DNA of 64,000 nt, taken from positions 1 to 64,000 of the forward strand of contig CANQBA010000002.1 of NCBI GenBank assembly GCA_947589545.1, in the 5' to 3' direction. This DNA comes from an uncultured Oscillospiraceae bacterium (lineage in GTDB: Bacteria; Bacillota; Clostridia; Oscillospirales; Oscillospiraceae). The notes beneath the pieces are model-generated. The model made no database searches. It saw nothing but the letters and a program-made list of their open reading frames with translations, and was not told the DNA's origin. The position numbers and the translations under genes were made by a program. Below, one piece after another: positions 7,985 to 54,184 of this stretch (position 1 is the first letter of the stretch; each line of letters begins with the position of its first letter).

Positions 7985-8953
7985 TCAACCGACGACGCAC
8001 CTGCTTTGATAGATGTTCCCGTAGTACCGCTCCCCGTAGGGCCCCTGGGCGTATGTCTCCAGGATGTCATAGACGTCCCACGATTGATAGATCCCGGCCA
8101 TCAGCGCCGCCAGAACCACCAGATCCCGGCGCATGATGAAGCCCGAGCCCACCGTCCCCAGAAGCGCCTCGGCGTCCGGCCTGTCAAGCTCCAGGCCCAC
8201 CGCCAGCCGCAGTAGAGTGCTCTGGCTCACCCGCTCTTTGGGGGCGTCGTCCTTCGTCTTCTCCCCCGTTTCGTTCTCCGTTTTTTCCCCCGGCTCGTTT
8301 TCCGGTTTTGCGTCTCCGGCGTCCCCGCGCTCCCTTGCCAGGGGCGCCCAGGCCCGGGAGGAGAGGAGCGTCCGGCGCTTCAGGAGCGCCTCGCTGATAT
8401 TTTTCCGCGCCATAAGCTCCCGGAGCGCCGGACGCAGACGGGAAAGTTCCTCGAAGGAGTCCCGCACCAGCAGCTCCAGGAACTCCCGCGTTTCCGCAGG
8501 CGTCATATTCGCCGCGCGGGCGATGCGTTTCGCCGTCTGCGGGGTAGTATACCCGGTGGACTCCAGAAAAGCCCTCCAGGAGGTATGGCCCAGGCGGGAT
8601 TCCTTGAAGACGGCGGCCAGCTCCCGGTCGTAAAGGTACATGCGCAGCTGCTTCTCCGCTGCCTTCGGGTTCACGCAGGCCACCGTCCGGAGCTCGGATC
8701 TCTTTTCCCGGGAGATGCCCAGCTCGGTCAGGCGGCGGGTGACAGACGCGTACAGCGGCTTTTCCCCGACGGCAAAAGCGGAAAGCTCCGCGGTTCCCAG
8801 GCTCACCTGCTTAATTTTTTTGGATATGCGCTCGTCCAGGATGCTCCCCAGGTAGGCGGCGGACGCGGTCCGCCGCCGCCGGATCGCGTCCTCGCTCATA
8901 AGAAGGTTTAAGATCTGCTCGATTTGAAGGATCGTCTCACTGTACTGGCCCAT
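7985..8953 (-). CDS. Helical repeat-like hypothetical protein
   Basis: 322 aa, all-helical, without signal peptide or membrane segment. Two stretches look alike: about 125-175 (SWRAFLESTGYTTPQTAKRI...) and the C-terminal ~75 residues (SQSTLLRLAVGLELDRPDAE... then LVVLAALMAGIYQSWDVYDI). Each pairs an HTH-like helical unit with a hydrophobic region, and the pattern recalls a helical domain found at the C-terminus of many uncharacterised clostridial proteins. An acidic linker rich in Glu, Asn, Lys and Asp (about 225-250) separates the halves. GGGAGGGT precedes the ATG. Function unknown. Confidence 0.62.
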   Translation of the reverse strand: MGQYSETILQIEQILNLLMSEDAIRRRRTASAAYLGSILDERISKKIKQVSLGTAELSAFAVGEKPLYASVTRRLTELGISREKRSELRTVACVNPKAAEKQLRMYLYDRELAAVFKESRLGHTSWRAFLESTGYTTPQTAKRIARAANMTPAETREFLELLVRDSFEELSRLRPALRELMARKNISEALLKRRTLLSSRAWAPLARERGDAGDAKPENEPGEKTENETGEKTKDDAPKERVSQSTLLRLAVGLELDRPDAEALLGTVGSGFIMRRDLVVLAALMAGIYQSWDVYDILETYAQGPYGERYYGNIYQSRCVVG

Positions 8954-8995
8954 TTAAATACCCTCCCGGGAAACGGCCGGCCGGAGGCCCCGCGC

Positions 8996-25818: not shown

Positions 25819-25894
<76 letters not shown>

Positions 25895-40759: not shown

Positions 40760-42265
40760 TCACGCCTCCAAGGTGAAGGGAATGGCGGGGAGGCCGGCGC
40801 TGTTGTAGAGATTTACCTGAAACCAGCAGGTTTGGGCAAAGCGCAGGCTGACCGGCCCCGCGTCCCGCCGGAGGGTGACGGTGAGGGTGTCGCCGGAGAC
40901 GGCGGCCTCAAAATCCACGGCCCCCGCGCTATCAAACGCTTCCAGCGCCGAGAGCGGTTCACCGCGAGCCGTCAGCCCCGCCCCGGCGTTTTGGAAGGCG
41001 ATTTTTACGGTTTTTCCCTCCCGGACGGCGCTCCGGGGATAGGGCGGGTCGCAAAGGAGAGGCCGTCCGTAGACACGGCCCAGGGCCAGGAGCGCCAGAC
41101 GACGGCCCACGGTCTTTTTGTCCTTGGGGTGGATATCCAGGCGCTGACCGGCGTCGGAAATCGAGCAGAGTTGCATGTCCGGGTCTTCCAGGCAGGCCAG
41201 CCGTTGACATTCCCGGATCGTCGGAAAGCCCTGATCATGAAAGCCGAACCAGGATTCCCAGCCGGGGAGCTGGACGATGAGGAAGGGCAGACGCTCGCTC
41301 CAAGCCTCCCGCCAACAGGCCGCCAGTGCGGCAAGCATGTCCTTATAAAGAGCGCCCCGCCCGCCGTTGTCGTCGGATTCCCCCTGGTACCAGAGGACGC
41401 CCTGCACGGGGAAGGGGGCCACGGTGGCAACCATCCGCTCCCAGAGGATACCGGGGGTGTTCTGGGGCAGGGGCAGGGCCGCCGTGACCGGGTCCGCCGG
41501 CGGTTGGGCGGCCAAAAAGGCGTCGATCTCCTTTTGGCCCGGCGTACGGGGGAGCATAAACTCGTTGAAGGGGTTCTGGAAGGGGCGGCCCGTGTCGTTG
41601 TCGGGCTTCCGGGCCATCCGCCTGAGGTAATCCGCCCGGTCAATGTTCTGAAAATCCGCCCTGGCGGCGTCCAGCCAGACCTTCCCCGCGCGTTTCACAT
41701 ATTCGCGGCTCATCCAGGCGCAGGAGGGGGTGCCGCCCCAGTTGCAGCCGACGATCCCCACGGGGACGTCCAGGGCCGCGCCCAGCTCCTTCTGAAAATA
41801 GTAGCCCACGGCGGAGAACCAATCCCGCTCCGCCCCCACGGCTCGCCGCCAGCGGCCCACCTGGCTGTAGTCAAAATCCCGCTCCTGGCCGGGATAGCTG
41901 AGCTTTGGCACGTCGTAAAAGCGAAGATCAGGAAGCTCCTCCGTCTCCTCCCGCCGGTGGGCCTCATAGCGAAGCCAGAACTCCATATTGGACTGACCGG
42001 CGGCGATCCACACCTCGCCCACGGCCACGTCCTCCAGCCGCGTTCTCTCACCCCCGGAGGATACGGTCACTGTAAGGCCCGTACCGGCCGGCAGCGGCGG
42101 CAGAACGGCCATCCACCGCCCGCCGGCGTCCGTCTGGGCGGTAACGCCATGGGGGCCCACGGTGACCTCCACGGTGCCGCCGGGGGCGGCGCTGCCCCAG
42201 ATTTTGACCGGCTTTTCCCGCTGGAGCATCATACCGGACTGAAAGATCTTTGCCAACGCGAGCAT
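40760..42265 (-). CDS. SGNH-type sialate O-acetylesterase/acetyl-xylan esterase-like protein
   Basis: 501 aa. The SGNH/GDSL-like catalytic Ser is in WIAAGQSNMEFWL (about 88-100). GTPSCAWMS and LWYQGESDDN are oxyanion/active-site blocks, and the Asp-His pair is likely in LDIHPKDK (about 385-392). A N-terminal beta domain (SAAPGGTVEVTVG) and a C-terminal beta region are as in COG2755-related DUF303 esterases. No signal peptide, so it probably deacetylates imported oligosaccharides. Co-oriented and 12 bp after the response-regulator gene. Acetyl-xylan as substrate is inferred from context. Confidence 0.83.
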   Translation of the reverse strand: MLALAKIFQSGMMLQREKPVKIWGSAAPGGTVEVTVGPHGVTAQTDAGGRWMAVLPPLPAGTGLTVTVSSGGERTRLEDVAVGEVWIAAGQSNMEFWLRYEAHRREETEELPDLRFYDVPKLSYPGQERDFDYSQVGRWRRAVGAERDWFSAVGYYFQKELGAALDVPVGIVGCNWGGTPSCAWMSREYVKRAGKVWLDAARADFQNIDRADYLRRMARKPDNDTGRPFQNPFNEFMLPRTPGQKEIDAFLAAQPPADPVTAALPLPQNTPGILWERMVATVAPFPVQGVLWYQGESDDNGGRGALYKDMLAALAACWREAWSERLPFLIVQLPGWESWFGFHDQGFPTIRECQRLACLEDPDMQLCSISDAGQRLDIHPKDKKTVGRRLALLALGRVYGRPLLCDPPYPRSAVREGKTVKIAFQNAGAGLTARGEPLSALEAFDSAGAVDFEAAVSGDTLTVTLRRDAGPVSLRFAQTCWFQVNLYNSAGLPAIPFTLEA

Positions 42266-42276
42266 CTTCTCACCCT

Positions 42277-43854
42277 CTATTTCATGCTTTTTCTGTACCG
42301 GGAGGGGGTACAGCCTTTGATCTCGATGAACTTGGCGATAAAGTAGTCGATGTCCCGGTAACCCACGCTTTCGGCGATGTCGCCGATCTTTCGATCCGTG
42401 TGCAAAAGCAGCTGGGCGGCCACGTTGACCCGGTGGAGCATCAGATAATTTTTAAAGGACTGGCCATATGCCTTGCGGAAGATCTGCCCCAGGTAGGAGC
42501 TGTTGATGTAGTATTTCTTCCCCAGATCCTGGAGCGTCAGGTTCTCGGCGTAGTTTTCCCGGATCTCCCGCTCGATGGCCTTCAGGATGCCGGTGGGCTC
42601 GCTGTGCCGCAGCTGCCCCAGGTAATCGGCGTACTCACAGGCGAAACGGGTCAGGTGACTGCTGCTCCCCCGCAGGAACCCCTGCTCTACGGATCCGGCG
42701 CTGATCATCTGGAGGATCTCCTCCTGATCGGCCTGGCTGTCCAGGCCGGAGGCCAGGTGCACCAGCCGGAAGAGGAGGTAATGGAAGTTCACATTGATGC
42801 CCTGCCGTTTCAGATCCAACTCCTTCATGCGGGAGAAGAGCTTCTGGACGCGGGCCTCGATGAGGCCGTGCTCTCCCCGCTCGATGGCTTCTACCAGATC
42901 GTCCATCTCCCGGCGCAGGAGGGGGGAGCGCTCCTCCACGGGAAGATCCCGGAACTCATGCTCGTACCAGTAGATGGGCTTCTGACTGCGGAAGGCCACC
43001 AGGCTCTTGATCATCATGGCGGACTCGTAGGACTGGGCGGCCTGCTCCATGTCCTGCACCCGGCGGCCCACAATGAAGCGGGTCTCCCGCCGGATGGAGA
43101 CGCAAAGGTGCCGGTGGAGCTGCTGGATAAACTGGGCCTCGGTGAGGCCCTTCTCCTCCGCCATATAGTCGCAGTACAGAAGCCCTCCGGCGTAGTAGAG
43201 CCGATCCTGGGCAAATTCCAGCACGCAATGGCCGGCGTCCTCCTGGAGGAACTGGCGGCAGTTCTGGTACACCTGATCCCGCAGAACCGCCAGCTCCTCC
43301 GGCTCGCCGTCGTCGTCCGGCTCTCCGGCCAACTCGATCTCGATATACCGCACCCCCGGCGACAGGCGCATATGGGCGCGGATATACGAAAGATCCTGTT
43401 CCGTCGCCCTGCCGTAGAGCAGGGCGATGAGGCGGCGGGTCAGATACTCCTGCTCGTATTTCTGCTCCATGCGGGCGTTCTCCGAGACGTTGCCGGAGCG
43501 GCGCAGGATGGCCAGCAGGTCGTCCCGCTCGATGGGCTTCAAAAGATAGTCCATGCACCCGTAGCGCAGGGCCTGCTGGGCAAAGGCAAATTCCCCATAG
43601 CCGGAAAGGATAACGAAGCTGGCGTCGGAGATATTCTCCCGCTTCACCGTCTCCAGAAGCTCCAGACCCGTCATCACCGGCATCATCACATCGGCAATGA
43701 CCAAGTCCACGCGGTTTTCCCGCAGATAGTCCAGCGCCTCCTGTCCGTTCTGGCACACGGCGGCGATCTCATAGCCCTCTGCCTGCCAGTCGATCAATTT
43801 CTCCAGGCCCTGAGCGATGAACACCTCGTCGTCCACCAGAAGCACCTTTAACAT
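42277..43854 (-). CDS. YesN-type response regulator with AraC DNA-binding domain
   Basis: 525 aa. The receiver domain (KVLLVDDEVFIAQGLEKLID) has acidic pocket Asp9-Asp10, phospho-acceptor Asp in LVIADVMMPVMTG (about 54-58) and Lys in YLLKPIERDD. A middle linker of ~270 residues follows. The C-terminal AraC/XylS-type pair of helix-turn-helix motifs is LTLQDLGKKYYINSSYLGQI and KIGDIAESVGYRDIDYFIAK. It is the partner of the adjacent YesM-like kinase, activated by phosphorylation, and likely switches on the uptake operon. AAAGGAG precedes the ATG. Confidence 0.92.
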   Translation of the reverse strand: MLKVLLVDDEVFIAQGLEKLIDWQAEGYEIAAVCQNGQEALDYLRENRVDLVIADVMMPVMTGLELLETVKRENISDASFVILSGYGEFAFAQQALRYGCMDYLLKPIERDDLLAILRRSGNVSENARMEQKYEQEYLTRRLIALLYGRATEQDLSYIRAHMRLSPGVRYIEIELAGEPDDDGEPEELAVLRDQVYQNCRQFLQEDAGHCVLEFAQDRLYYAGGLLYCDYMAEEKGLTEAQFIQQLHRHLCVSIRRETRFIVGRRVQDMEQAAQSYESAMMIKSLVAFRSQKPIYWYEHEFRDLPVEERSPLLRREMDDLVEAIERGEHGLIEARVQKLFSRMKELDLKRQGINVNFHYLLFRLVHLASGLDSQADQEEILQMISAGSVEQGFLRGSSSHLTRFACEYADYLGQLRHSEPTGILKAIEREIRENYAENLTLQDLGKKYYINSSYLGQIFRKAYGQSFKNYLMLHRVNVAAQLLLHTDRKIGDIAESVGYRDIDYFIAKFIEIKGCTPSRYRKSMK

Positions 43855-43855
43855 A

Positions 43856-45637
43856 TCAAGCGCTCCTTTCCGTTTTATTCAGGGGGATGCGCACCGTAAA
43901 CACGGTGCCGATGCCCTTCTCGCTCTCTAAGCTGAAGCTGGCCGTACCGTCGGTCATCATCTGGATACGCAGGCAGGCGTTGACCACGCCCACCCGGCCC
44001 GGTCCCCGGAGCATGTCGATGCTGGCGTTGCGCATCCGCTCCTCCAGGGCGTGGGCCTCGTCCTCCTCCATGCCCCCGCCGGTATCCTCCACCTCCACGC
44101 AAAGAAATTCCCCATCGGAATTCACCCGCACGAAGATCCAGCCGGGGCTTGTCTTGCTCTCGATGCCGTGGACGCAGGCGTTCTCCACGAAGGTGGTGAT
44201 GGTCAGCTTGGGCACCAGAATGGCCTCGCACTCCGGCTGGACCTCCACCCGGTAGTTGAGGCGATCCCCGAACCGGTATTTTTGCAGCGCCAGATAGGCC
44301 TCCACGAATTCCAGCTCCCTTTTCACCGTGTCCGTGTCCGTGGACCAGTCCACGTTCTGGCGCTCCATGATGGCCAGCTTCTCCACCATGTCCGCCGTCT
44401 CCCGCTCGTCCTTCAAAATGCTGTGCATCCGGATACTCTCCAGGGCGTTGAACAGAAAATGGGGATTGATCTGGCTTTGCAGGGCCAGAAGCTCCGCGTT
44501 CTGACGGGCGATGTCCATCTCCTGCTCCCGCAAACGGTTGCGGTATACCTGGTCGATGAGGTCGTTCATCCGCAGGGCCATCCGGTTATAGTTGTCCATC
44601 AGGCCGCCGATCTCGTCCTTGCCGTTATCGCCGGGGATGGCGATCAGCTCCTCGCTGTCCACCTGGTTGAACACCTCGCCCAGACGGAAGATGCGGCTGT
44701 TGATGGAGCGCTCGATGAGGTTGATGATGAGCTGGGGGGAGAAGATATTGAAAAGGAGCAGCAAAAGGACAATGAGGGCGTTGTCCCGCAGAAAGGCCAG
44801 GACGGTGTTGGTGCGGCGCAGGACCCGGACGGTAAGCGGCAGACCGTACAGGTCGAAGCTCTCCTCCAGCCCCACCTCCCGGCGCTTGGTGAAGGCGGTG
44901 TAGGCCTCTCTCTGGTTGTTGGGGCCGTCGCCGGAGATGATGACCCTGTCCCCGGTGCAGATATATACGGGGAAGTCGTACTTCATGTTAATGGTATCGG
45001 CCACAAGGGTGCTGTAATTGAGGTCGATCTTCACGAACATGTCCGTCCCCTTTTCCTTGGAGAACCCGCCCAGATCCCGGATGAAGGAGATCATTCTCCC
45101 ACTCTCCGGGGAGTCATACACGATGAGCAGGGGATCCAGGGGACTTTCCGCGTAACGCCGGAACCACTCCTCCTCCCGCACGTCGGAGACCTTCATGAAG
45201 CCGCTCCCGTTGACAAGGCCCTCGTTGTCGGCGTAGATGGTCACCACGCTGTTGTCGATCTGGGAGATGCCTCTGAGCACCGATTGGTGGGTGATCCGCT
45301 GGTACGCATTGTAATACTCCGCGGGGTTTTCAAATTCCGTCTCCAGAAACTCCCTTACCGATGTATCCAGATAGATGGTCCTGGCAATCACCGACGGCGT
45401 CTCGGTGAAGCTGGTGACGCTGTATTGTACGGCGCTGGCCACGTCCGCCATCTCCCGCGCCTGCTCGGAGCGCTCCGCCCGTATGAGGCTCACCAATATC
45501 ACCGCGTCCGTTAGGATAATGGGGCCCAGAATGCAGAAATAGTAGAGAACTCTGAGCTTTTTCCGCAGGCTCAGATCGTTGAGCCGCCGCCCCACCCGCT
45601 CCACAAGGCCGCCGCCCAGCTTTTTCAGACGCTTCAC
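43856..45637 (-). CDS. YesM-type sensor histidine kinase
   Basis: 593 aa, GTG start with GGGAGG upstream. Two membrane helices (VLYYFCILGPIILTDAVILV about 30-50; NALIVLLLLLFNIFSPQLII about 297-317) flank an extracytoplasmic sensor domain. Then a HAMP-like linker, the His_kinase segment QINPHFLFNALESIRMHSI with the phospho-accepting His, and a HATPase domain ending VENACVHGIESK, GGGMEEDEAH and GPGRVGVVN. It senses extracellular sugar, probably oligosaccharide or binding-protein-linked, and phosphorylates YesN encoded downstream; the stop overlaps the YesN ribosome region. Confidence 0.92.
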   Translation of the reverse strand: MKRLKKLGGGLVERVGRRLNDLSLRKKLRVLYYFCILGPIILTDAVILVSLIRAERSEQAREMADVASAVQYSVTSFTETPSVIARTIYLDTSVREFLETEFENPAEYYNAYQRITHQSVLRGISQIDNSVVTIYADNEGLVNGSGFMKVSDVREEEWFRRYAESPLDPLLIVYDSPESGRMISFIRDLGGFSKEKGTDMFVKIDLNYSTLVADTINMKYDFPVYICTGDRVIISGDGPNNQREAYTAFTKRREVGLEESFDLYGLPLTVRVLRRTNTVLAFLRDNALIVLLLLLFNIFSPQLIINLIERSINSRIFRLGEVFNQVDSEELIAIPGDNGKDEIGGLMDNYNRMALRMNDLIDQVYRNRLREQEMDIARQNAELLALQSQINPHFLFNALESIRMHSILKDERETADMVEKLAIMERQNVDWSTDTDTVKRELEFVEAYLALQKYRFGDRLNYRVEVQPECEAILVPKLTITTFVENACVHGIESKTSPGWIFVRVNSDGEFLCVEVEDTGGGMEEDEAHALEERMRNASIDMLRGPGRVGVVNACLRIQMMTDGTASFSLESEKGIGTVFTVRIPLNKTERSA

Positions 45638-45733
45638 GTCCCCGCCTCCCTTATGCCAAAACTGAAAATCATAGGGGTAAGTCCTGTAATTTGTCCCTTG
45701 CCAAATCCGCGATGGGCCATTACTATTTAACTA

Positions 45734-45762
45734 AATATAATATAGTTTTTATCCCGTGTCAA
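45734..45762 (-). promoter_or_regulatory. Promoter of yesMN
   Basis: Minus strand perfect TTGACA (45757-45762), 17-bp spacer, TATATT (45734-45739), about 97 bp from the YesM-type kinase start. Confidence 0.68.
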
Positions 45763-45803
45763 CACATTTTTCAATAAAGTGACGAAAACAGGGGGTCTAA
45801 TAA

Positions 45804-46466
45804 GTGCGCAGTTTGTTCAGTATAGACAGTCCTCTGATGCGCTTTCTGGGCAGAGTGGGAGATTTGATGATCCTGAATATCCTCTTTCTTGTTACAAGCA
45901 TCCCAATCATCACCGTGGGTGCTTCGCTGACCGCCCTGCACTACGCCGTCTATAAAATGGTCTGCGGCAGCGACACCTCGGCGGCGCGGGACTATTTTCA
46001 TTCCTTCCGGCAAAATTTCCGGCAGGCCACGGCGCTATGGCTTTTGCTGATGCTCTTCGGGTTCCTCCTATGGTACGATCTGCGCTCGGTGTGGGGGCAG
46101 ACCGGTCTTATCCAGACGGCGGTGAAGCTCATGAGCCTGGTGGCCTGCGCGGCGATGGCGATGCTCCTGCTCTATGTGTTCGCCGTGCTGGCCCGGTTCG
46201 ACAACACCGTTCGGGGTACTCTGAAAAACGCCGTAGGCCTGGCGCTCCGGCATCCGGGCAGGACGGTCTCCATGTTTATGCTCCCCTTCGCCTGCGGCGT
46301 TCTGACCTTTTACACCTACAGCACTATCCGCTGGGGCCTGCTGGCCTGGCTGTTGATTGGCTTTGCCGCCATCGCCTATTTCAATTCCTTCCCCCTGCGG
46401 AAAACCTTTGACGAGGCGGTGGAGCTGAGCGGGGGGATCGATGTCGGGGAGGAGCCAGAGCTATAG
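45804..46466 (+). CDS. YesL/DUF624 family membrane protein
   Basis: 220 aa, GTG start with AGGGGG 9 nt upstream. Membrane helices include GDLMILNILFLVTSIPIITV, ALWLLLMLFGFLLWY, LVACAAMAMLLLYVFAVLA and GLLAWLLIGFAAIAYF. The N-terminal SPLMRFLGRVGDLMILN and PIITVGASLTALHYAVYKM blocks are hallmarks of DUF624/YesL proteins, which accompany YesMN and LplABC-type systems. Exact role unknown; it may modulate the sensor or transporter. Transcribed divergently from the kinase gene. Confidence 0.85.
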   Translation: MRSLFSIDSPLMRFLGRVGDLMILNILFLVTSIPIITVGASLTALHYAVYKMVCGSDTSAARDYFHSFRQNFRQATALWLLLMLFGFLLWYDLRSVWGQTGLIQTAVKLMSLVACAAMAMLLLYVFAVLARFDNTVRGTLKNAVGLALRHPGRTVSMFMLPFACGVLTFYTYSTIRWGLLAWLLIGFAAIAYFNSFPLRKTFDEAVELSGGIDVGEEPEL

Positions 46467-46858
46467 CTGACGGGAGTTGAACCCGCTTACAAAGCTCCCT
46501 TTTCTCCGGCGTTGGACGCCCATCTGCTCAACAGAGCATGTGTTTCCGTGGCAACACACAATACCGCAGAGAGGGTGGAAAGTCGAGAAGAAGTTGTTGG
46601 GCAGAAGGGAGAAAAACATTTGTGCGTGCACTATGAATTTGTGTCATCACTGGTGACACAAATTCGGATTCCGAATAACTGCCAACGGTGGTGGGCTGAC
46701 CCACTCAGACACGAGGAACCCGTTTTGCGTACACTTTTCCAGACCCACACTTTGACCCACACGGGAAAATCACGGGGTGGAAGCGGTGGATTTAACAGCA
46801 CTCTCGATCTCGTCCTTTTGGACCAAAAAGGGCCGAAAAACGTTGGGGCGCAAGGGAT
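46467..46858. other. Gene-free stretch with tRNA-like and integrase-site remnants
   Basis: No gene is seen. On the minus strand 46464-46546 contains a T-arm-like hairpin (GCGGGTTCAACTCCCGT) and further tRNA-like elements, but no acceptor stem closes. A perfect 12-bp palindrome (GAATTTGTGTCA / TGACACAAATTC) lies at 46635-46665. CCCACACTTTGACCCACAC at 46740-46760 mirrors the motif beside the integrase. A stem CCTTTT / AAAAGG is near 46815. This looks like the scar of an integrative element. Confidence 0.5.
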
Positions 46859-47197
46859 TTAAGGGGCCGAGCCACTTGGCGAGGAGGAGATCCGCTCTTT
46901 CAGGATCTCCGGTGAAATATAGAGATACAAAAAGACGTCGTATAGTTTCCCGTCGTCTTCGGTAAACGCGATCTCATTGCCAAAGGAATAGTGGCCGTCC
47001 ATGATAAAGTCATCTTCACGCGACAGCCTTCCGGCCAGCTCCTGACGAACGCGCGCCCGCCCCTCGGGCGCAAGTGAATCAAACTCGGGGGAGACAGCTC
47101 GGAGCAGCGCGCTCCCTTCAAAAACCCGCATAAAATCCACCTGTTTCAGCAGGTGGGTTTTCCCCGACGCCGGCATTCCGTAAAGGCCCATCTTCAT
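46859..47197 (-). CDS. P-loop kinase-like protein, probably C-terminally truncated
   Basis: 112 aa. Walker A GMPASGKTH at about 7-15 follows a strand (MGLYG). The later DDFIMDGHYSFGNEIAF and LYDVFLYLYISPEILKERI resemble a Walker B strand and lid region of small AAA_33/adenylate-kinase-like nucleotide or RNA kinases, which are usually ~180-200 aa. Reading stops soon after KERISSS, where the gene-free stretch begins, so the C-terminal third seems lost. Its ATG overlaps the stop of the radical SAM gene (ATGA). Substrate unknown. Confidence 0.62.
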   Translation of the reverse strand: MKMGLYGMPASGKTHLLKQVDFMRVFEGSALLRAVSPEFDSLAPEGRARVRQELAGRLSREDDFIMDGHYSFGNEIAFTEDDGKLYDVFLYLYISPEILKERISSSPSGSAP

Positions 47198-48003
47198 AGT
47201 GACTCCTTATAACAGCGGTTTCGATCAAAATCGAGGGATATTTTCTCCAGGTCAAAGAGGGATATGCCGCTGTCGGCTATCGGCGGGCAATCAATACAAT
47301 TCCCGCAGTAGTACACAGATCCGTTGGCAAAAAAGAAATTGTTGATCCCCGCGCCGCATTGGCCCCCATACATCGTGCAGTCATTGCCGCCACGGCGGAT
47401 ATCGAGCCGCTTCTCGGCAAGCTTTAAGAACCGGCGGTATTCATCAAGTCCGATTCCATGCCTTCCGATCATCCGGGAAAACGTGATCCTTGTACCGAAC
47501 TTTTCGAAGAAGTCTATCACCGGTTCGGGGGTGGCCAGGGTCTCTTTACCTACTGTCGCGTTGAAGGTAGGGTAATGCCCTGTGACGGATTTATTCCATT
47601 CCACACCACGCATGGCTCGGTCAAAGGAGTGTTCGCGGTACAGATCGTGTAACTGTTTCGGCCCATCGATGGAAAAACCGACATTGACGCGGTGATTCTC
47701 AAGAAAGAGCAGCTCGCTTTCCGGGAGCAGGATCGTTCCGTTTGTGATCGTGTATGTTGAGATATGCGGATCGTCCTCAAGGTAAGCGATAAAGCTTTTG
47801 AGCTTTGGCCAATCAAGAAAGGGTTCACCGTTACCGACAAACCCGATCTTAAACCGGCCCTCACCGCGCAAATACATTTTTACATGATCCAGTATGGCGA
47901 AAACATCCATGGGAGCGTCGACGATCCTGGTTTTCTCATGGAAGTGGCAGTATTTACACGATAAATTGCACCTGTTGTTTATGGAAATGCAAATTCGGTC
48001 AAT
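47194..48003 (-). CDS. Radical SAM protein with C-terminal cysteine cluster
   Basis: About 269 aa. The cluster motif CNLSCKYCHFHE is near residues 11-22, upstream of the first ATG (47910), so translation must begin earlier. The in-frame ATT at 48003, overlapping the preceding gene's stop as GATTGACC with GGAGG 12 nt upstream, is the best candidate. Downstream features are FVGNGEPFLDW (SAM-binding GNGEP-type motif) and a SPASM-like set: CTMYGGQCGAG, then YYCGNCIDCPP. SPASM proteins often modify peptides or carry extra clusters for RNA or protein substrates. Between an HTH-PIN-ankyrin gene and a P-loop kinase gene, all minus strand. Confidence 0.72.
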   Translation of the reverse strand: MDRICISINNRCNLSCKYCHFHEKTRIVDAPMDVFAILDHVKMYLRGEGRFKIGFVGNGEPFLDWPKLKSFIAYLEDDPHISTYTITNGTILLPESELLFLENHRVNVGFSIDGPKQLHDLYREHSFDRAMRGVEWNKSVTGHYPTFNATVGKETLATPEPVIDFFEKFGTRITFSRMIGRHGIGLDEYRRFLKLAEKRLDIRRGGNDCTMYGGQCGAGINNFFFANGSVYYCGNCIDCPPIADSGISLFDLEKISLDFDRNRCYKESL

Positions 48004-49420
48004 CGTCTTCCGTCGCCTCCGGCGGACGATCCCACCAGTCCTGGGCCGTCCTGTTATTTCTGTCGCGTATAAGGGCGTCCGCTTTCATTTCGTCTCTCAG
48101 GAACCGGTAAATGGCCTCATAGCGGTCACAAGGCTTTCCGTCGTTCCTGCGATTCCAGCGCTGAACCGCGCATTTCATCAGCGCGGTGTATCCATTGCAA
48201 TCCTGGGCGTTTATTGAGATCCCCGGAAGACCGCAAAGCTTTTTGACGTATTCTTCCCTGCCCAGGAAACATGCGATCATCAAAGGCGTGTTCCCCTCGT
48301 TGATCTCGCTCACACGCTTGTCCCTGCGTTGTGTCTCGTCTACGGAGCATTTGTTGTAATCCGCGCCATGATCGAGAAGCATACAAAACTCGGTGAAGTC
48401 CGGATCGTGACGTTCAATACAGTGTTCCAAGGGCGTGTGGCAATACTGATGTGAGTCCGTCTTATTGGGATCGGCTCCGTGCTCCAAGAGGAAAAGTATC
48501 TTACGCTGAATAAGCGCCTCGGGGATATACCGTCCTCCCCGTTCCTCGACCTTTTCCGGCAAGTTGCAATTTATGCAACTGATCAACAGCGTCATTCCGT
48601 CGGGCAAAAAGGCGTCCAGATCCATTTCCTTCGCGGCAAGGGTATACCGCTCCAGGTGGTCAAATTCCTTGTCGAAATCAAGAAGCAGCTGATAATCGCC
48701 GCTGCTCCTTGCGTTTCGTTTCGCCATGTAGTCGTCAAGGTAAACCGCGTTGACCGTATCGTCAACAAGATGGGCAAAGTCCTTGTCAACGTGGATAATT
48801 TCTACGATTCTGGAGGTCTGCCTCCGGATGTCTTTAGCCAGCTCTACGATCCTTTGGTCCTTCTCGGAGATCCCCATATTCCCGTCCACATTGTAATGCC
48901 TGGTGCTTTTCCGCTGGACCCGCCCTTTATACGTTACCTCATACTCCTCGATCATGCTCATGACCTGCGAGGCGATCTTCTTATTCCGCCGGTTCTGGGG
49001 CCTGGAGCCGCGATCCAGCCTTTTGCCCTTGAAGCCGCTCAATTCAAGGCTCACAACATCAGGGATGATAACACGGTCGTAGGATTCCAAAAGCGGGTTT
49101 ATCAGGCGCATATTTCGGAGCAGCGCGGAGGTGTCCGGGATCGCAATGGCCACCTTCTGAGCCAGGGCGCCCCTGGGGACGCCAAGTCCCTTCTCAATAT
49201 ACGCGATCGTTTCCGGGGTCGGGGTCATTTTGCCGCTTTCATAGCGCAGGATATTATATCTCGTCGTGAACGCGGCTTTCGCAAGGTCGTCCTGGGTCAT
49301 ACCCTTTTCTTTCCGCAGACGTTTGATATTCATCCCTATCGTTTCGTTTTCGATGCCGTTCCCCACCGCCAAATCCCCGCTTTCAATAGAATTGGCCCCT
49401 GTATCCCGGGCGTTTTTCAT
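47999..49420 (-). CDS. HTH-PIN-ankyrin fusion protein
   Basis: 473 aa of unusual architecture. An XRE-type helix-turn-helix (MTQDDLAKAAFTTRYNILRY) spans about 31-85. A PIN-like nuclease domain at about 90-236 has the first Asp in AIPDTSALLRN, an acidic VSLELSGF, GISEKDQRIVELAKD and HVDKDFAHLVDD. Ankyrin-type repeats at about 275-460 include FLLEHGADPNKTDSHQYCH, TPLEHCIERHD, MLLDHGADYNK, NTPLMIACFLGREEYV and YTALMKCAVQR. A nuclease under the control of its own DNA-binding domain plus a protein-binding repeat array suggests a self-contained toxin or defence effector. Start uncertain: ATG 49420 has no good ribosome site, and ATG 49333 is possible. Confidence 0.75.
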   Translation of the reverse strand: MKNARDTGANSIESGDLAVGNGIENETIGMNIKRLRKEKGMTQDDLAKAAFTTRYNILRYESGKMTPTPETIAYIEKGLGVPRGALAQKVAIAIPDTSALLRNMRLINPLLESYDRVIIPDVVSLELSGFKGKRLDRGSRPQNRRNKKIASQVMSMIEEYEVTYKGRVQRKSTRHYNVDGNMGISEKDQRIVELAKDIRRQTSRIVEIIHVDKDFAHLVDDTVNAVYLDDYMAKRNARSSGDYQLLLDFDKEFDHLERYTLAAKEMDLDAFLPDGMTLLISCINCNLPEKVEERGGRYIPEALIQRKILFLLEHGADPNKTDSHQYCHTPLEHCIERHDPDFTEFCMLLDHGADYNKCSVDETQRRDKRVSEINEGNTPLMIACFLGREEYVKKLCGLPGISINAQDCNGYTALMKCAVQRWNRRNDGKPCDRYEAIYRFLRDEMKADALIRDRNNRTAQDWWDRPPEATEDD

Positions 49421-49690
49421 TATACATCATTCAAACTGTGCATACAATGCCAGGCCGAAATATGCACATTTTTGCGGACAATATCACAATTCAGGCGAAT
49501 ATTTTGGGATCGAAATGCACATTTGCGCCTGCGATCAACCGGCAGGCGGGGACAGGTATTCTTGCCGAAAATAATATGCTCCCCCTGCAGCAGACAATGA
49601 AAAGGAAAAGACTGTCGAGACAGGGGGAGCATATAAAGAGGCCGGGAGATTTTTACTGTCAAAAGGGTCAGGCGTCCTCAAGCGGCGGTA
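49421..49690. other. Intergenic with a long palindrome
   Basis: No gene is seen. At 49577-49633 a 13-bp inverted repeat (TATGCTCCCCCTG / CAGGGGGAGCATA) flanks a ~31-base loop. It would act as a terminator for the four-module gene on the minus strand, where it precedes TTATTTT. The CAGGGGGAGCAT half recurs at the ISAs1 insertion point near 10311. Confidence 0.45.
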
Positions 49691-51535
49691 TCACATCGTA
49701 TCCTCCCCGGCGTCAGGGACGGGGATACCGGGCCGGCAGTTTTTGCAGGGCTCCTGTTCATAGCAGCTGTCGCACAGGGTTCGCGGGCGGGGGAGATCCT
49801 CCCGAAGCCGGCCGGGCTCGCCGCAGTATTCGCAGATCTCCCTGGACCGGCGCTGACAGCGGCTGAGGATCTCCTCCGTTTTTTTGTGGATGTCCTCCAG
49901 ACCGGCGGCCCCGCTGTTCTTCTCCAAGTCCCAATAGCCCTTAATTTTCAGAGCGCCGTCCTCTTCGCGCATATCGGTTATCCAACAATCCGTTTCCAGC
50001 CCCTCCGCCGCGTAGAGCTCCGCCACCTCCTGACAGCTCTCGCGGATGAGATCGCGCCACCCGCTCCGGCAGTTGATGAAAACACGGCGTGTGCCCCTGC
50101 CGGCGCGGGCCCTTTCCTCATCCGCGCTAAAAAAGGGATACTTCTTTTCCAGCTCGTCCTCAAACGCCTTGTCTTCAAAATTCCGCCGGGAAGGGAACGT
50201 TCCGGCTTTTTTCAGCTCATGGCACCCGTCGCACAGCGTCTGGACCAGGGGCAGATCCTCCCGAAGCCCGCCGGGAGCGCCGCACTCCTCGCAGATATGC
50301 TCCGACGCCCTCTCCGCCCGGCGGATGCGCTCCTCCACCGCCTGGTGAAGGGACTCCCGGCCCTCGCCGGAAAAGCCGTACTCCAGCCGGAGAGCCCCGT
50401 ATCTCCGGTTTGCCCGCCGGAACTCCAGATCGGGCTCCACGCCGGCGGCCCCGTAGAGCTCCGCGATGTCCCGGCACAAGTCATGGATGACGCCGCGCCA
50501 GCCGGGGCCGCAATCCACAGACATTCGAATTGGCGTATTATCGTATTTCGCCTTATAGACGGTAAAGGGGTACCGGCCCGTCAGCTCCCGCTCAAAGTCC
50601 CGGGCCGGATCGATGTCCTCCAGCCGTTTCAGCTCCTCCCGGTAACACCGGTCGCAAAGGGAGCGGATCCAGCCCAGATCGCTCCGGTACTCGCCGGGAG
50701 CGCCGCAGACCTCGCACACATGCTCGGACATGTCCTCATACCGGTCTAAGGTGTCGTACGCCCTTCTCCGAGCGGCCCTCAGCGCGGCCTTCAGCGTATC
50801 CGTCAGCTCCGCCCAGTCGTCATACCTGCCGTCGGGATCCATATAGACTCGGAGAAGGCCATACTTCTCCTTGATCTGAGCAGGCTCCATCTCTGGCTCC
50901 AGGCCGGCCTCGCGGTAGATCGCGTCGATCTCCCGCGCCATGTCGTAAAGAAGGTAGTACCAGCCGTCGCAGCACTCCCTGGGAAACGGGTACCACAGGC
51001 CGGTCTTGTCCTGATCCTCCTTCACGTAGACGCGGAAGTTGGGGAAATCCGTGCCGATCCGATCCTCCATCCACACATCCGCGGCCCAGTCGTCCTCCGT
51101 TATGCCCAACCGCCTCAGCTTCCTGTCAAAGCAGCTGTCGCACAGCACCTTTCCGGAGAGGTTTTCCCGGGACACGCCGGGTCTGCCGCAGCGCTCGCAC
51201 ACGCCAGCCACGGCTTGCGCGTAACGATCCAGGATGTCCAACACCTGCCGGCGGCAGGAGGGCGCGCCCCCCTCCAGGGCAGCGGGCGTAAAGTACACCG
51301 TGAAGCGCAGTCCCTTGTAGCCGGACTCGATCCGCGTCACCCGCAGGTCGGGCGCGACGCCCAGGGAGGCGTACAGATCCCGGATCTCCCGGCACATATC
51401 CCTGATATGCGGATACCACCTGTCCCCGCAATTGGTGTACACCGGGTACCAGCGGGGCTCGTCCTCCGCCCAGACGCGCTCCACGCGCATAAAAGGGAAC
51501 TTGTTTGCAAGGGCGTTCTCAAGCTCAATTCTCAT
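49691..51535 (-). CDS. Protein with four tandem copies of a phage-type zinc-ribbon module
   Basis: 614 aa from ATG 51535 (GGAGAAGGA upstream); a longer frame to 51595 lacks a ribosome site. It consists of four modules of ~135-160 residues (about 1-145, 146-305, 306-440, 441-614). Each has a core C..GW(Y/R)..(I/L)..(M/L)C.EI..LY...G (for example NCGDRWYPHIRDMCREI), a G-LR strand, and a terminal zinc ribbon: CERCGRPG..CDSC, CEVCGAPG..CDRC, CEECGAPG..CDGC, CEYCGEPG..CDSC. The single module is familiar from small phage and prophage hypothetical proteins, whereas four in tandem is unusual. It may bind nucleic acid or protein; function unknown. It has its own promoter and a leader with a terminator. 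Confidence 0.74.
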   Translation of the reverse strand: MRIELENALANKFPFMRVERVWAEDEPRWYPVYTNCGDRWYPHIRDMCREIRDLYASLGVAPDLRVTRIESGYKGLRFTVYFTPAALEGGAPSCRRQVLDILDRYAQAVAGVCERCGRPGVSRENLSGKVLCDSCFDRKLRRLGITEDDWAADVWMEDRIGTDFPNFRVYVKEDQDKTGLWYPFPRECCDGWYYLLYDMAREIDAIYREAGLEPEMEPAQIKEKYGLLRVYMDPDGRYDDWAELTDTLKAALRAARRRAYDTLDRYEDMSEHVCEVCGAPGEYRSDLGWIRSLCDRCYREELKRLEDIDPARDFERELTGRYPFTVYKAKYDNTPIRMSVDCGPGWRGVIHDLCRDIAELYGAAGVEPDLEFRRANRRYGALRLEYGFSGEGRESLHQAVEERIRRAERASEHICEECGAPGGLREDLPLVQTLCDGCHELKKAGTFPSRRNFEDKAFEDELEKKYPFFSADEERARAGRGTRRVFINCRSGWRDLIRESCQEVAELYAAEGLETDCWITDMREEDGALKIKGYWDLEKNSGAAGLEDIHKKTEEILSRCQRRSREICEYCGEPGRLREDLPRPRTLCDSCYEQEPCKNCRPGIPVPDAGEDTM

Positions 51536-51591
51536 TTTTCCTTCTCCTTCCCGTTCCGTGACGTTAACCTCGATGTAGATCCATCCTGAAA

Positions 51592-51625
51592 ACAAAAAAG
51601 CCGCGGCGCCTATGGCCGCAGCTCA
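51592..51625 (-). terminator. Terminator in the leader of the four-module gene
   Basis: Minus strand GCTGCGGC, loop, GCCGCGGC (one mismatch) followed by TTTTTTG. It lies between the promoter (51735-51763) and the start codon (51535), so it is a candidate attenuator. The upstream leader can form other stems (CCGTCACGG near 51655; GGCGTGCTTTTCGCGCC near 51640). Confidence 0.6.
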
Positions 51626-51734
51626 AACCCCGGGCGCGAAAAGCACGCCGGGAGCCGTGACGGCCTCCGAAACGAACCCTTCAACACCGCGAACAAACCG
51701 CATGGGGTTGAAACCATATAAATTTGTCGCCCTT

Positions 51735-51763
51735 ACCATACCAAATAATCGGACGGTTGTCAA
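51735..51763 (-). promoter_or_regulatory. Promoter of the four-module gene
   Basis: Minus strand perfect TTGACA (51758-51763), 17-bp spacer, TATGGT (51735-51740). Predicted leader of about 190 nt. Confidence 0.65.
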
Positions 51764-51782
51764 TAGATGAAGAAGAAAAAAC

Positions 51783-51978
51783 CAGAGTTCATCAACGAGT
51801 AAATTTTCAATGAATATTCAAACGGTTTGTTGATGTAATACGGGTGAAAAATGGCATTGAAGTGCATTTTTTATGCGCCAAATTTTCCGCTTTATGGGAG
51901 GCGGCTTGGATACACTCGCGCGCTTTCCATCAAATGCGCTTATTTGTTCATACTTTTTTAACTCATTAATCAACCCTG
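51783..51978. mobile_element. MITE related to the ISAs1 element
   Basis: 196 bp without coding capacity, flanked by inverted repeats CAGAGTTCATCAACGAGTAA (left) and, read inward from the right, CAGGGTTGATTAATGAGTTA. These match the ends of the ISAs1 remnant at 10323-11390. The similarity extends to TATGAACA about 26 bases in. No clear target duplication. The promoter of the next gene begins 20 bp after its right end. Confidence 0.65.
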
Positions 51979-51997
51979 AAAATCCTCCTCCCGCCTC

Positions 51998-52026
51998 TTG
52001 CAATCATCCCTTTACCGTAGTATAAT
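51998..52026 (+). promoter_or_regulatory. Promoter of the SCP2/aminotransferase pair
   Basis: TTGCAA (51998-52003), 17-bp spacer, perfect TATAAT (52021-52026), about 38 bp before the start codon. Confidence 0.65.
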
Positions 52027-52063
52027 CATTGTGTCTATGCGAATTTACAAGGAGGCGGCCTTT

Positions 52064-52816
52064 ATGGATGAACGTACTCTGGCGTTTATCAATCTCCACG
52101 CGGTTCTGGGCGGGCTCGCGAAGCTCTGCGAGCTTGACCCTGAATGTAAAGCCCTCATCGAGGGCAAAACCATCTCCATCGGCATCACCGTCAAGGACGG
52201 CCCCGAGGGGACGATCCGGTTTGAAAACGGCGTCTGCACCGTGACCCCCGGCGTTGACAGGTGCGACATCAAGCTGCCCTTCTCCTCCTGCAAGAAGTTC
52301 AACGGCCTCATCGACGGCACCGTCACCCCCATCCCCTCCAAGGGCTTTACCAAGATCGGATTCCTGCTGAAGGAATTTACAAAGCTCACGGACAAGCTCA
52401 CCGCCTACCTCCGGCCGGCGGAGGGCGCTCTGGACGACCCGGAGTTTTTCCGAATCAGCACCACCGTGATGCTCCACCTCATCCTGGACGCCGTCGCCCA
52501 GATCGGCAATCAGGACAAGGTGGGCCGGGCCAGCGCCTCCTACATCGTGGACGGCAACGTGCGCATCGGCATCGACGGCGGCCCGGAGGGGTACATACAC
52601 GCCCGGAACCACACCCTCACCGCCGTGCACACCCCCTGCGACGACCCCACAAGCTATATGATCTTCGCCACTATGCGCGACGCCCGGGATCTCTTTGACG
52701 GCAAGGTCAACGGCGTCGTCTGCGTGGGCTCCGGCAAGGTGCGCATGGGCGGCATGATCTCCATGGTGGACAATGTGAACCGTATTCTCGACAGAGTGTC
52801 GATGTATCTGGCGTGA
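52064..52816 (+). CDS. SCP2-like sterol-binding-fold protein
   Basis: 250 aa from ATG 52064 (AAGGAGG, 8-nt spacing). The central part (SIGITVKDGPEGTIRFENG, KLPFSSCKKFNGLIDGTVTP, GFLLKEFTKLTDKLTAYL) matches the pattern of SCP2-type lipid-binding domains (alternating strands around an amphipathic helix). A second alpha/beta part, GNVRIGIDGGPEGYIHARN to VCVGSGKVRMGGMISM, ends the protein and looks like a second related unit. It is cytosolic with no signal peptide. It stands 9 bp before a class III aminotransferase gene, suggesting one pathway. Ligand unknown. Confidence 0.6.
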   Translation: MDERTLAFINLHAVLGGLAKLCELDPECKALIEGKTISIGITVKDGPEGTIRFENGVCTVTPGVDRCDIKLPFSSCKKFNGLIDGTVTPIPSKGFTKIGFLLKEFTKLTDKLTAYLRPAEGALDDPEFFRISTTVMLHLILDAVAQIGNQDKVGRASASYIVDGNVRIGIDGGPEGYIHARNHTLTAVHTPCDDPTSYMIFATMRDARDLFDGKVNGVVCVGSGKVRMGGMISMVDNVNRILDRVSMYLA

Positions 52817-52825
52817 GGTGAGCAT

Positions 52826-54076
52826 ATGAGAAAGGTATACGAATATCCCAAGTCCCGCGCCGCCTTTGAGCGGGCCTGCAAGCTGATCCCCTCCGGCATC
52901 TACGGCCATCAGGGCCCCGCCGAGGGCTGTTACATCCCCGTGGAGGCGTTCCCGCTCTACTCCTCCCGTGCCCAGGGCAGCTATCTCTGGGATCTGGACG
53001 GCAACAAATTCATTGACTACATGTGCGCTTACGGGCCCAACGTCCTGGGCTACAACGATCCCGACGTGGACGAGGCCGCGGCCCGTCAGCGGGCCATATC
53101 CGACTGTACCACCCTGCCAAACCCCGTGATGATCGACTTCGCCGACCTCTTGGTGGAGACGGTGGCCTGCGCCGACTGGGCCTTCTTCGCCAAGAACGGC
53201 AACGACGTCACCACCTGCGCCGTGATGACCGCCCGGGCCTACACCCACCGGAAGAAGATCGTCTTCTTCAAGGGCTACTACCACGGCGTCTCCCCCTGGA
53301 CCCAGAAGATCGACTACGCCGGCATCTTGGAGGAGGACGTGGCCAACAACCTCTACGTCACCTGGAACAACTTCGATGAGCTGCAGGAGGTCTTCGAGCA
53401 AAATAAGGGCGAGATCGCCTGCGTCATCGCCCAGCCCTACATGCACGGCAACTTCGCCGACAACGAGCTGCCCCTCCCCGGCTTCTGGCAGCGCGTCCGC
53501 AAGCTCTGCGACGACACCGGCACGGTGCTGATCGTGGACGACGTGCGGGCCGGCTTCCGGCTGGACATCGCCGGCAGCGACCACTATTTCGGCTTCAAGG
53601 CGGATCTCATCTGCTTCTGCAAGGCCCTGGCCAACGGCTACAACGTCTCCGCCCTGTGCGGACGGGATTTCCTGAAAAATTCCGTCTCCTCCCTGAGCTT
53701 CACCGGCTCCTACTGGATGAGCGCCGTCCCCTTCGCCGCCGGCATCGCCTGCATCCAGAAGATGAAACGGCTTGACTGCCCCAAGCTCCTCATCGACCAG
53801 GGGACAAAGCTGAAAAACGGCCTGATTCACACGGCCCTGAAATACGGCTACGACCTGCACGTCTCCGGCGTGCCCAGCCTTTTCTACCTGCGCATCGCCG
53901 ACGACCCCACCCTGATGCTCCATCAGGAGTGGATCGCCGAGTGCGTCAAGCGCGGCGTGTTCTTCACCAACCACCACAACCACTTTATCAACGCCAGCCT
54001 CACCGACGAGGACATCGAGGACACCCTGGAGATCGCTGACGAGGCCTTCAGCGTGGTGAAGGAGAGACACAGCTGA
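52826..54076 (+). CDS. Class III pyridoxal-phosphate aminotransferase (glutamate-1-semialdehyde aminomutase-like)
   Basis: 416 aa. Fold type I PLP enzyme. Landmarks: GSYLWDLDGNKFIDYMCAYG, FFAKNGNDVTTCAVMTARA (phosphate binding), KGYYHGVSPW, the VDDVRAGFR acid that binds the PLP ring, and the Schiff-base Lys in ICFCKALANGYNVSALCG. It resembles HemL-like aminotransferases/aminomutases, but no heme genes are near and the active-site neighbourhood VDDVRAGF deviates from the HemL DEVMTGF-type motif. So a transaminase acting on another substrate is likely. GAGGTGA precedes the ATG. Co-transcribed with the SCP2-like gene. Confidence 0.8.
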   Translation: MRKVYEYPKSRAAFERACKLIPSGIYGHQGPAEGCYIPVEAFPLYSSRAQGSYLWDLDGNKFIDYMCAYGPNVLGYNDPDVDEAAARQRAISDCTTLPNPVMIDFADLLVETVACADWAFFAKNGNDVTTCAVMTARAYTHRKKIVFFKGYYHGVSPWTQKIDYAGILEEDVANNLYVTWNNFDELQEVFEQNKGEIACVIAQPYMHGNFADNELPLPGFWQRVRKLCDDTGTVLIVDDVRAGFRLDIAGSDHYFGFKADLICFCKALANGYNVSALCGRDFLKNSVSSLSFTGSYWMSAVPFAAGIACIQKMKRLDCPKLLIDQGTKLKNGLIHTALKYGYDLHVSGVPSLFYLRIADDPTLMLHQEWIAECVKRGVFFTNHHNHFINASLTDEDIEDTLEIADEAFSVVKERHS

Positions 54077-54077
54077 G

Positions 54078-54152
54078 CCTGTCGGAAAAGCCCTGACGGG
54101 CTTTTCCGACAAAAGGTACGTGCGGGCCGGCCGCCTGACCGGCCCGTTTCCA
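54078..54152 (+). terminator. Two stem-loops between aminotransferase and pyrC
   Basis: GTCGGAAAAGCCC / GGGCTTTTCCGAC form a perfect 13-bp stem (54080-54109), followed by CGGGCCGG / CCGGCCCG with a TTT run (about 54122-54150). They would stop upstream transcription before the pyr operon. A conventional PyrR leader structure is not evident. Confidence 0.55.
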
Positions 54153-54184
54153 CCGCTTTATCCAACAACCTCAACGGAGGCTCT

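Follow-up and report, generated by a model that had tools for sequence, protein, structure and literature searches.

The question raised by this locus is why a fusion of DNA-binding, nuclease and ankyrin domains should share an operon with a radical SAM enzyme and a nucleotide kinase. The stretch of 64,000 nucleotides analysed here, from a contig of an uncultured Oscillospiraceae bacterium, is referred to as the window. The original prediction described a possibly damaged, conflict-type module of three genes in a single operon, belonging to no named system and modifying RNA or peptides, in which the ankyrin array would hold the nuclease. The three genes were located where they had been predicted, all on the minus strand, and the single operon, the conflict-type context and the damage are all supported. 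No name for the set was obtained from PADLOC, NCBIfam, Pfam or the literature, in which our search found no published description of this gene combination, and the CD-NTase domain of CBASS was absent from the cassette genes scanned.

The HTH-PIN-ankyrin (HTH-PIN-Ank) protein (47999..49420, minus strand; 473 aa as called) bears out the predicted fusion through Pfam matches, all on the minus strand, to HTH_19 at residues 30-91 (49148..49333; 8.1e-11), PIN_4 at residues 94-203 (48812..49141; 1.3e-8) and Ank at residues ~308-420 (48161..48499; 3.7e-11), the last also matched by PADLOC PDC-M72A (308-420). Translation of this protein probably begins with the GTG at 49366, because the annotated ATG overlaps a TATAAT box, which TTGTAT precedes at 17 bp in a reading made by eye and not listed by the scan. 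The PIN acids D96, E126 and D188 are all present in the window, as is D212 just past the PIN_4 match. In homologues the acids were found to be mostly conserved, with D96 in 26, E126 in 28, D188 in 25 and D212 in all of 30 aligned rows, the single gap at D96 belonging to a row shortened in the alignment. The HTH-bearing copy of loci L002, L015 and L018 has a PIN domain with acids missing; these proteins share 40-41% identity with the window protein (44% for L012), and the full ORFs of L010, L013 and L029 contain the HTH.

The second gene encodes the radical SAM enzyme (47194..48000, minus strand; Pfam radical SAM, 2e-15). As listed, the ORF (47194-47910) leaves out the CxxxCxxC motif, which precedes its ATG, and is therefore too short. 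The frame is open back to 48084 with no ATG, GTG or TTG before 47910, and the starts of relatives map to window positions 48001-48003 (ATG in 26 of 28, GTG in one and TTG in one), where the window has no standard start codon for this gene. The enzyme is ~268 aa long.

Only the 5' third of the third gene, encoding a kinase-HAD phosphatase, is retained (46894..47197, minus strand), with a partial kinase domain that keeps its Walker A motif (AAA_17, 1.8e-7 on ORF 46859-47197). The suspected truncation proved correct: homology ends near codon 102-107 and the remainder of the ORF with its stop derives from a repeat, the final codons and stop (46859..46893, minus strand) lying within a genus-wide att-like arm (46549..46893, plus strand). 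The kinase tblastn match enters this repeat by 16 bases, to 46877, past the repeat edge at 46893. In four relatives the att-like match stops at the identical base, and the sequence next to it is the 3' end of tRNA-Thr; the intact tRNA-Thr(GGT) of the window (25819..25894, plus strand) has as its 3' end the sequence that follows the arm in those relatives. Judged from these alignments, the window copy has lost its HAD half and a following transferase gene at the att-like junction, and no convincing match to either was found elsewhere in the window's genome. An Rfam search of 45500-52200 gave nothing at gathering score.

Relatives display both the missing kinase end and the phosphatase, and by comparison with them the window locus is a decayed remnant of a larger four-gene cassette. 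The linkage of PIN-Ank, radical SAM and kinase was rightly recognised in the original prediction, but the set is larger and also includes a UPRTase-like transferase. The order PIN-Ank, radical SAM, kinase-HAD phosphatase, transferase is found in 26/26 relatives whose contig is long enough, so that the cassette genes occur together wherever they could be seen, and in two of these 26 the transferase is fused to the kinase-HAD protein. Neighbouring genes overlap at 23/28, 26/27 and 24/24 of the three successive junctions, an arrangement that identifies the four genes at sequence level as one mostly overlapping operon. Catalytic residues are kept in most copies.

The chemistry of the cassette has to be deduced from its enzymes. 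The kinase half has a predicted adenylate-kinase-like fold with a nucleoside-monophosphate kinase as its best match, the HAD half a predicted SerB-like fold, and the transferase a UPRTase fold with a PRPP loop, in which alignment with the window genome's own Upp shows the uracil-binding loop YIVPGLGDAGDR to be replaced. Relative to Upp the cassette transferase is also shorter and is tied to a kinase and a HAD phosphatase. Taken with that of the radical SAM enzyme, these predicted folds point to nucleotide chemistry, which fits the enzymes better than the modification of RNA or peptides originally proposed. T4 Pnkp consists of a kinase followed by a HAD phosphatase. This same order, in an operon that includes a PIN nuclease, would accommodate a module in which PIN cuts RNA and the kinase-HAD protein heals the ends; we regard it as very unlikely, given the better match of the kinase to nucleoside-monophosphate kinases, the lack of a ligase among the four genes and the lack of a role for the UPRTase-like gene. 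Pnkp was found neither at E <= 0.1 in the kinase sequence profile nor among the fold matches listed, a result that does not amount to exclusion.

SPASM and twitch domains carry a half motif, CX9-15GX4C, after the radical SAM core. Past the core of the cassette enzyme we found C215-x11-G227-x4-C232 (C215 in 27/27, G227 invariant, C232 in 26/27), which by its sequence qualifies as such a half motif, the extra conserved cysteines being 208, 215, 232, 235 and 263. The predicted fold is anSME/viperin-like with twitch-type cysteines. This bears on a viperin-like reading of the cassette, in which the three enzymes would produce a chain-terminating nucleotide as a direct block on the polymerase of a competing phage, with HTH-PIN-Ank mainly a regulator or back-up. 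Viperins (pVip, SAND) with CMPK2-like kinases do resemble the cassette in having a radical SAM enzyme of compact size partnered by a nucleotide kinase, and in their mobile context; however, the match to the NCBIfam viperin model NF038283, at 37.3 bits, fell far short of the cut-off of 180, and other radical SAM families matched better, the HxsB model reaching 74.2 bits against a cut-off of 370. The cassette further differs in adding HAD, UPRTase-like and HTH-PIN-Ank genes, and to our knowledge viperin has no such extra C-terminal cysteines. The viperin-like proposal is accordingly doubtful.

The same C-terminal cysteines suit a twitch/SPASM half, anSME and ChlB head the fold list, and the best of the 25 NCBIfam models listed (of 73 matched) are mostly peptide or protein maturases, all of which would be in keeping with a radical SAM enzyme that modifies a protein, perhaps HTH-PIN-Ank itself, to hold or arm it. 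The cassette enzyme nevertheless falls below the cut-off of each of these 25 families, is shorter than anSME and other SPASM/twitch enzymes, and has no sulfatase or precursor gene in its operon; most gene starts overlap, and at those junctions there is no room for a precursor peptide gene. No common motif was visible in the alignment of the variable HTH-PIN-Ank tails, and kinase, HAD and UPRTase-like enzymes are, as far as we know, unusual partners of peptide or protein maturation. We consider maturation quite unlikely.

Regularly spaced operator arrays, defined by a rule fixed after the spacings had been seen, occur in 16/31 loci before HTH-PIN-Ank, after the transferase or at both places, and the array after the transferase often precedes a NERD gene. 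The window carries two direct TGTGCA copies 53 bp apart (49516..49521 and 49463..49468, minus strand) and an inverted copy 26 bp from the last of them (49437..49442, plus strand), a spacing found in 5/5 upstream regions with TGTGCA sites of the window kind. As the operator sequence, GTTGC or TGTGCA, tracks the kind of HTH-PIN-Ank even among closely related enzymes, this protein probably regulates both promoters. Strict arrays are missing in 15/31 loci, including the HTH-bearing L002, L015, L018, L010, L013, L029 and L085 (L015 was not itself scanned and is entered as a near-duplicate of L002); L012 has TGTGCA sites, whereas L002, L015 and L018, about equally close to the window protein, are without strict arrays. 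Comparison of PIN-Ank with the enzymes gave 0.02-0.19 in corrected subsets, not significant, and 0.29-0.47 in an 18-cassette subset without L010, L013 and L029, or 0.00-0.25 when L085 was also removed.

In its PIN acids and plausible HTH self-regulation, judged from sequence, the protein resembles VapC and other PIN-based or type II toxin-antitoxin systems, but its HTH, PIN and ankyrin parts belong to a single polypeptide, no separate antitoxin is recognisable, and its cassette adds three metabolic enzymes as well as a second promoter carrying the same operators. No antitoxin family was matched above cut-off by any of the four cassette genes, the HTH part matching antitoxin HTHs weakly. The same comparison covers the PIN defence systems DS-3 and DS-5 of DefensePredictor (PMC13092281).

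Several carriers resemble phages or prophages. In one the cassette lies antisense between portal and terminase, and some copies follow holin and endolysin genes or adjoin integrases. The cassette is often phage-borne, in viruses of gut bacteria. Lachnospiraceae are among the carriers of an intact cassette, for example at the loci of L029 and L008. Instead of immunity, such neighbours and the operator arrays could point to a module for phage regulation or control of the host: HTH-PIN-Ank would govern expression related to lysogeny, and the enzymes would alter the nucleotide pools of the host. We hold this to be unlikely: some loci show no phage genes by eye, several carriers having apparently chromosomal neighbours, and exchange of PIN-Ank between cassettes is expected of conflict systems.

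The reading we favour, with somewhat better than even confidence, is that the window holds a degraded remnant of an often phage-borne, self-regulated four-gene conflict cassette that would make a nucleotide derivative. HTH-PIN-Ank would be regulator, sensor and RNase in one chain, occupying the arrays, where one site lies between the -35 and -10 elements or overlaps them, and holding both promoters low. A phage trigger, sensed via the ankyrins or a ligand, may then release it, raising expression and allowing RNA cleavage. The transferase would act with the kinase, the HAD and the radical SAM enzyme to produce and adjust a nucleotide, modified and probably of pyrimidine type, which would serve either as a signal to the PIN-Ank and NERD proteins or as a poison against a competing phage. 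That the product is a small molecule is a guess, set against a radical SAM fold nearest the protein-modifying anSME. A Ter-linked biosynthetic module reportedly has a predicted nucleoside-like metabolite, and is alike in the idea of a conflict-linked nucleotide-type metabolite. More tentatively, and with an expectation well below even, it can be speculated that the cassette is prophage-borne immunity in which the UPRTase-derived enzyme, nucleotide kinase, HAD phosphatase and twitch radical SAM make a new nucleotide messenger for a DNA-bound RNase that is repressor, sensor and effector and controls a pair of promoters, one for its own operon and the other for a NERD nuclease. The lost PIN acids (L002, L015, L018), the 15/31 loci without strict arrays and the chromosomal-looking carriers count against the favoured reading.

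We contend that the cassette is a good candidate for a novel type of bacterial or viral immunity. If the favoured reading is true, it would offer a new nucleotide-type signal or antiviral molecule, a regulator whose single chain serves as repressor, RNase and ankyrin sensor, and a compact enzyme set for finding new radical SAM chemistry on nucleotides. Since operators and HTH-bearing protein vary in step at both promoters, the proposed DNA binding lends itself to a direct test.

Searches beyond the relatives gave no match for the kinase-HAD protein in phage and plasmid record collections, nor for that of L085 in plasmids or the L085 transferase in phages. A location of L085 in the published P2 hotspot was ruled out, that hotspot lying between gpA and gpQ (PMC9122126). 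A distant radical SAM gene occurs in gut phage and other records, with the other cassette genes absent from the examined parts of L090-L093 (4/30). Radical SAM matches of 23-28% were obtained in eight plasmid records; by annotation, the two of these eight neighbourhoods examined held no cassette genes, and three of the other matches are annotated as HxsB.

The original prediction of three coupled genes at 46859-49420, for an HTH-PIN-ankyrin protein (HTH-PIN-Ank), a radical SAM protein and a short P-loop kinase, was borne out, all three being present on the minus strand. With the radical SAM protein as query, four viral loci (L001-L004) and 24 genome loci (L008-L031) were found, all Clostridia-type as judged by record title or genus and mostly from Lachnospiraceae (9 of the 24 by title, others by genus). 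PIN-Ank adjoins the radical SAM gene in 28/28 of these loci, including L022, where it is cut by the contig start, and L018, where only a 67-residue piece adjoins directly and a whole HTH-PIN-Ank lies before that. A kinase-HAD gene is next in 27/28, so that the three genes co-occur elsewhere and the sought kinase end and phosphatase are both present in relatives; the one miss, L030, is at a contig end. A UPRTase-like phosphoribosyltransferase is found in 26/28 loci, 24 times as a separate gene and twice fused to kinase-HAD (L027 and L028, in which kinase, HAD and transferase form a single protein), and contig ends account for the misses (L030 and L026). Neighbouring cassette genes overlap at 23/28, 26/27 and 24/24 junctions. 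Independent loci are fewer than these counts, since L015 nearly duplicates L002, L010 nearly duplicates L029, and L003 and L023 are close. Viral scans with the other cassette genes returned the same four contigs plus L084, which breaks off inside PIN-Ank, and L085.

Catalytic residues are kept in most copies. The PIN acids of the originally proposed nuclease are mostly kept in homologues (30 rows: D96 in 26, E126 in 28 (two D), D188 in 25 and D212 in 30). The first acid is replaced by H in L002, L015 and L018, and upstream of radical SAM in these three loci the HTH-PIN-Ank that has lost PIN acids adjoins a PIN-Ank lacking the HTH. In L018 this neighbour is a fragment; in L002 and L015 it is a second PIN-Ank, which in L002 retains the acids. 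These pairs perhaps represent a regulator/effector split following duplication. Radical SAM cysteines 11, 15, 18, 208 and 215 are present in 27/27 rows and 232, 235 and 263 in 26/27, the miss being L030, at a contig end; C215-x11-G227-x4-C232 is consistent with the opening half of a SPASM/twitch motif. In the kinase, G12 and K13 are kept in 25/25 rows, as are D193, D195, T197, K292, D311 and D315 of the HAD, and the transferase PRPP-loop D97 is kept in 23/23. One erroneous row (alignment A4) is excluded from these residue counts. In the window, the CxxxCxxC motif lies upstream of the start of the listed radical SAM ORF. Its reading frame continues upstream without a stop as far as 48084, with ATG, GTG and TTG all absent before 47910, and starts in relatives map to 48001-48003 (ATG in 26/28, GTG and TTG in one each).

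The three-gene observation stands, and the preferred reading shifts from the RNA- or peptide-modifying module originally proposed to a probable self-regulated, often phage-borne cassette with predicted nucleotide-type enzymes. No named system tested fits the cassette. It lacks a defining feature of viperin, of the named peptide maturases, of type II toxin-antitoxin and of CBASS; PIN, twitch and UPRTase fold fit single genes and name parts of the cassette rather than the whole. Pnkp was absent from the sequence hits of the kinase half and from its listed fold rows, and at most junctions the gene overlaps leave no space for a RiPP precursor gene. Searches of open-licence PMC papers turned up none recognisable as describing the gene set, passages of PMC13092281, PMC10853773, PMC8195603, PMC10732462 and PMC9122126 included; an earlier description may exist in the subscription literature.

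Self-regulation is suggested by putative operators in the stretches upstream of HTH-PIN-Ank (28 plus the window; 350 bases each, 227 in L014). At least two direct GTTGC sites, typically spaced 20 and 30 bp, occur in 17 loci whose HTH-PIN-Ank is related to the L001 protein, exceeding randomised sequence (p < 0.05) in 14 of the 17 (not L016, L021 and L031). In 13 loci an exact inverted copy lies downstream of a direct one; the distance from the preceding direct copy is 33 bp in all but one of them, where it is 32 bp. TGTGCA sites without GTTGC were found in the window, L004, L020 and L026 (69-70% identical proteins) and L012 (44%), with enrichment (p 0.003 or less) and an inverted copy at 26 bp in 5/5; the window keeps three sites, at 53 and 26 bp. 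Neither pattern was seen upstream in L002, L015, L018, L010, L013, L029 and L085, all of which still carry the HTH (L015 being assigned on both points by likeness to L002); the L002, L015 and L018 proteins are 40-41% identical to that of the window. A simple box pattern gave promoter-like boxes in 9/11 loci tried, and in 9/9 the inverted copy lies between or overlaps them.

Second arrays were also observed. An own-type array lies at most 270 bases upstream of the NERD gene in 8/11 NERD-bearing loci, and in L004 and L008 it precedes a small gene followed by NERD. By reading, these small genes (L004 7494-8066, L008 8532-8987) encode putative membrane proteins, and a lipoprotein-like protein stands behind the second array of L011 (8570-9523). 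Requiring three or more sites at fixed spacings, a criterion chosen after the spacings were seen, gave 24 arrays across 32 sequences totalling 364,390 bases, from 16/31 loci including the close relatives L003/L023; none was in the window and none in twenty randomised sets. As L047 and L014 do not differ across a stretch of 4050 bases, one L047 array is a duplicate and 23 are distinct. By coordinates, 12 lie before PIN-Ank, 12 after the transferase and none elsewhere, placement being partly by hand where the script gave no label or another ORF. In a looser count, at least four GTTGC occur in 84/3870 other 350-base stretches and at least three TGTGCA in 24/3870, stretches that may include second arrays. 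Binding of these putative operators by the HTH is best supported by loci with close enzymes and different HTH-PIN-Ank, in which the sites differ as well: L012 (TGTGCA) and L014 (GTTGC) share 77% identity in radical SAM but 32% in PIN-Ank, and L026 (TGTGCA) and L024 (GTTGC) 83% but 29%.

Mantel correlations across 26 cassettes were 0.83 for radical SAM/kinase-HAD, 0.75 for kinase-HAD/transferase and 0.54 for radical SAM/transferase (p 0.001), versus 0.05-0.07 (n.s.) for PIN-Ank against each enzyme (full-length proteins 0.04-0.08, n.s.). PIN-Ank values were 0.17-0.19 (p 0.09-0.12) in 21 single-copy cassettes, 0.04-0.07 in 20 without L085 and 0.02-0.08 in 18 without near-duplicates, the enzymes still giving 0.32-0.77 in these sets. 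An 18-cassette subset omitting L010, L013 and L029 gave PIN-Ank 0.47, 0.47 and 0.29 (p 0.001, 0.006 and 0.068), and 0.25, 0.25 and 0.00 with L085 also out; those three loci belong in the sets, and this subset is not the correct one. We conclude that PIN-Ank is swapped between cassettes more than the enzymes are.

A distant relative, the 10.6 kb viral contig L085, has the complete four-gene set. Compared with the query proteins, its PIN-Ank is 31-35% identical, its radical SAM protein 36%, its kinase-HAD 25% and its transferase 32%. Its cassette is antisense, flanked by portal (phrog_2739, 1.2e-67) and terminase large-subunit (phrog_2, 1.8e-31) genes. Ten neighbour proteins, picked from seven loci rather than as a census, all matched phage families (portal, terminase, holin, endolysin, integrase), and a phage tail protein lies upstream in L016. 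Gene lists read as chromosomal-looking in L009, L011, L013, L018, L021, L025, L028, L029 and L031. In L021 an ADP-ribosylglycohydrolase-like protein (8385-9326, by reading) immediately follows the transferase.

The cassette is rare among genomes of the window's order, class and phylum. Under strict E-value limits (1e-40, 1e-20, 1e-20, 1e-25, 1e-10), the radical SAM profile matched 1/394 genomes of the order, the window's own, and kinase-HAD 1/398 of the phylum and 3/391 of the class. HTH-PIN-Ank matched 4/391 of the class, namely these three and G828, in which PIN-Ank and radical SAM precede a contig end. Each of 12/12 carriers searched has a single kinase-HAD match.

The window copy is broken, its kinase homology ending between 46893 and 46877, in agreement with the truncation first suspected. 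A genome-wide search found no remaining HAD half or transferase of the cassette; the best other matches are two that fall within long open frames (6e-4 and 0.007) and one that contains stops (0.003). A stretch whose last base is exactly 46893 is shared with four other genomes of the genus, where it continues into CCAGTTCGAATCTGGGTA(T/G)CAGCTC, the tRNA-Thr 3' end. The window has its own intact tRNA-Thr gene at 25819-25894. In each of these four relatives an intact tRNA-Asp/tRNA-Thr pair is accompanied by extra tRNA-Thr 3'-end copies, which a pattern search located in three and a separate search in the fourth. From 25819-25894 to 46893 there are probably tandem islands at tRNA-Thr; we infer an island hot spot at tRNA-Thr and a deletion that joined the kinase gene to an att arm. 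The relative G1170 has three such 3'-end copies within 21 kb. Syntenic flanks match the relative G1172 at 41811-46614 (two pieces, 98 and 96%) and 51979-54200 (95%), so about 46615-51978 is variable; in G1172 the two flanks fall on separate contigs and do not display an empty site. At 49691-51595 (minus strand) lies a gene for a 634-aa protein built from roughly four repeats that each finish in a zinc-ribbon-like CxxC...CxxC; the protein had no Pfam match above cut-off, and a second copy in the same genome (G000:C5:42409-44405) has 89% DNA identity over most of its length. Two short dispersed REP-like repeats, with many copies in the genome and genus, lie at 46549-46614 and about 54074-54126.
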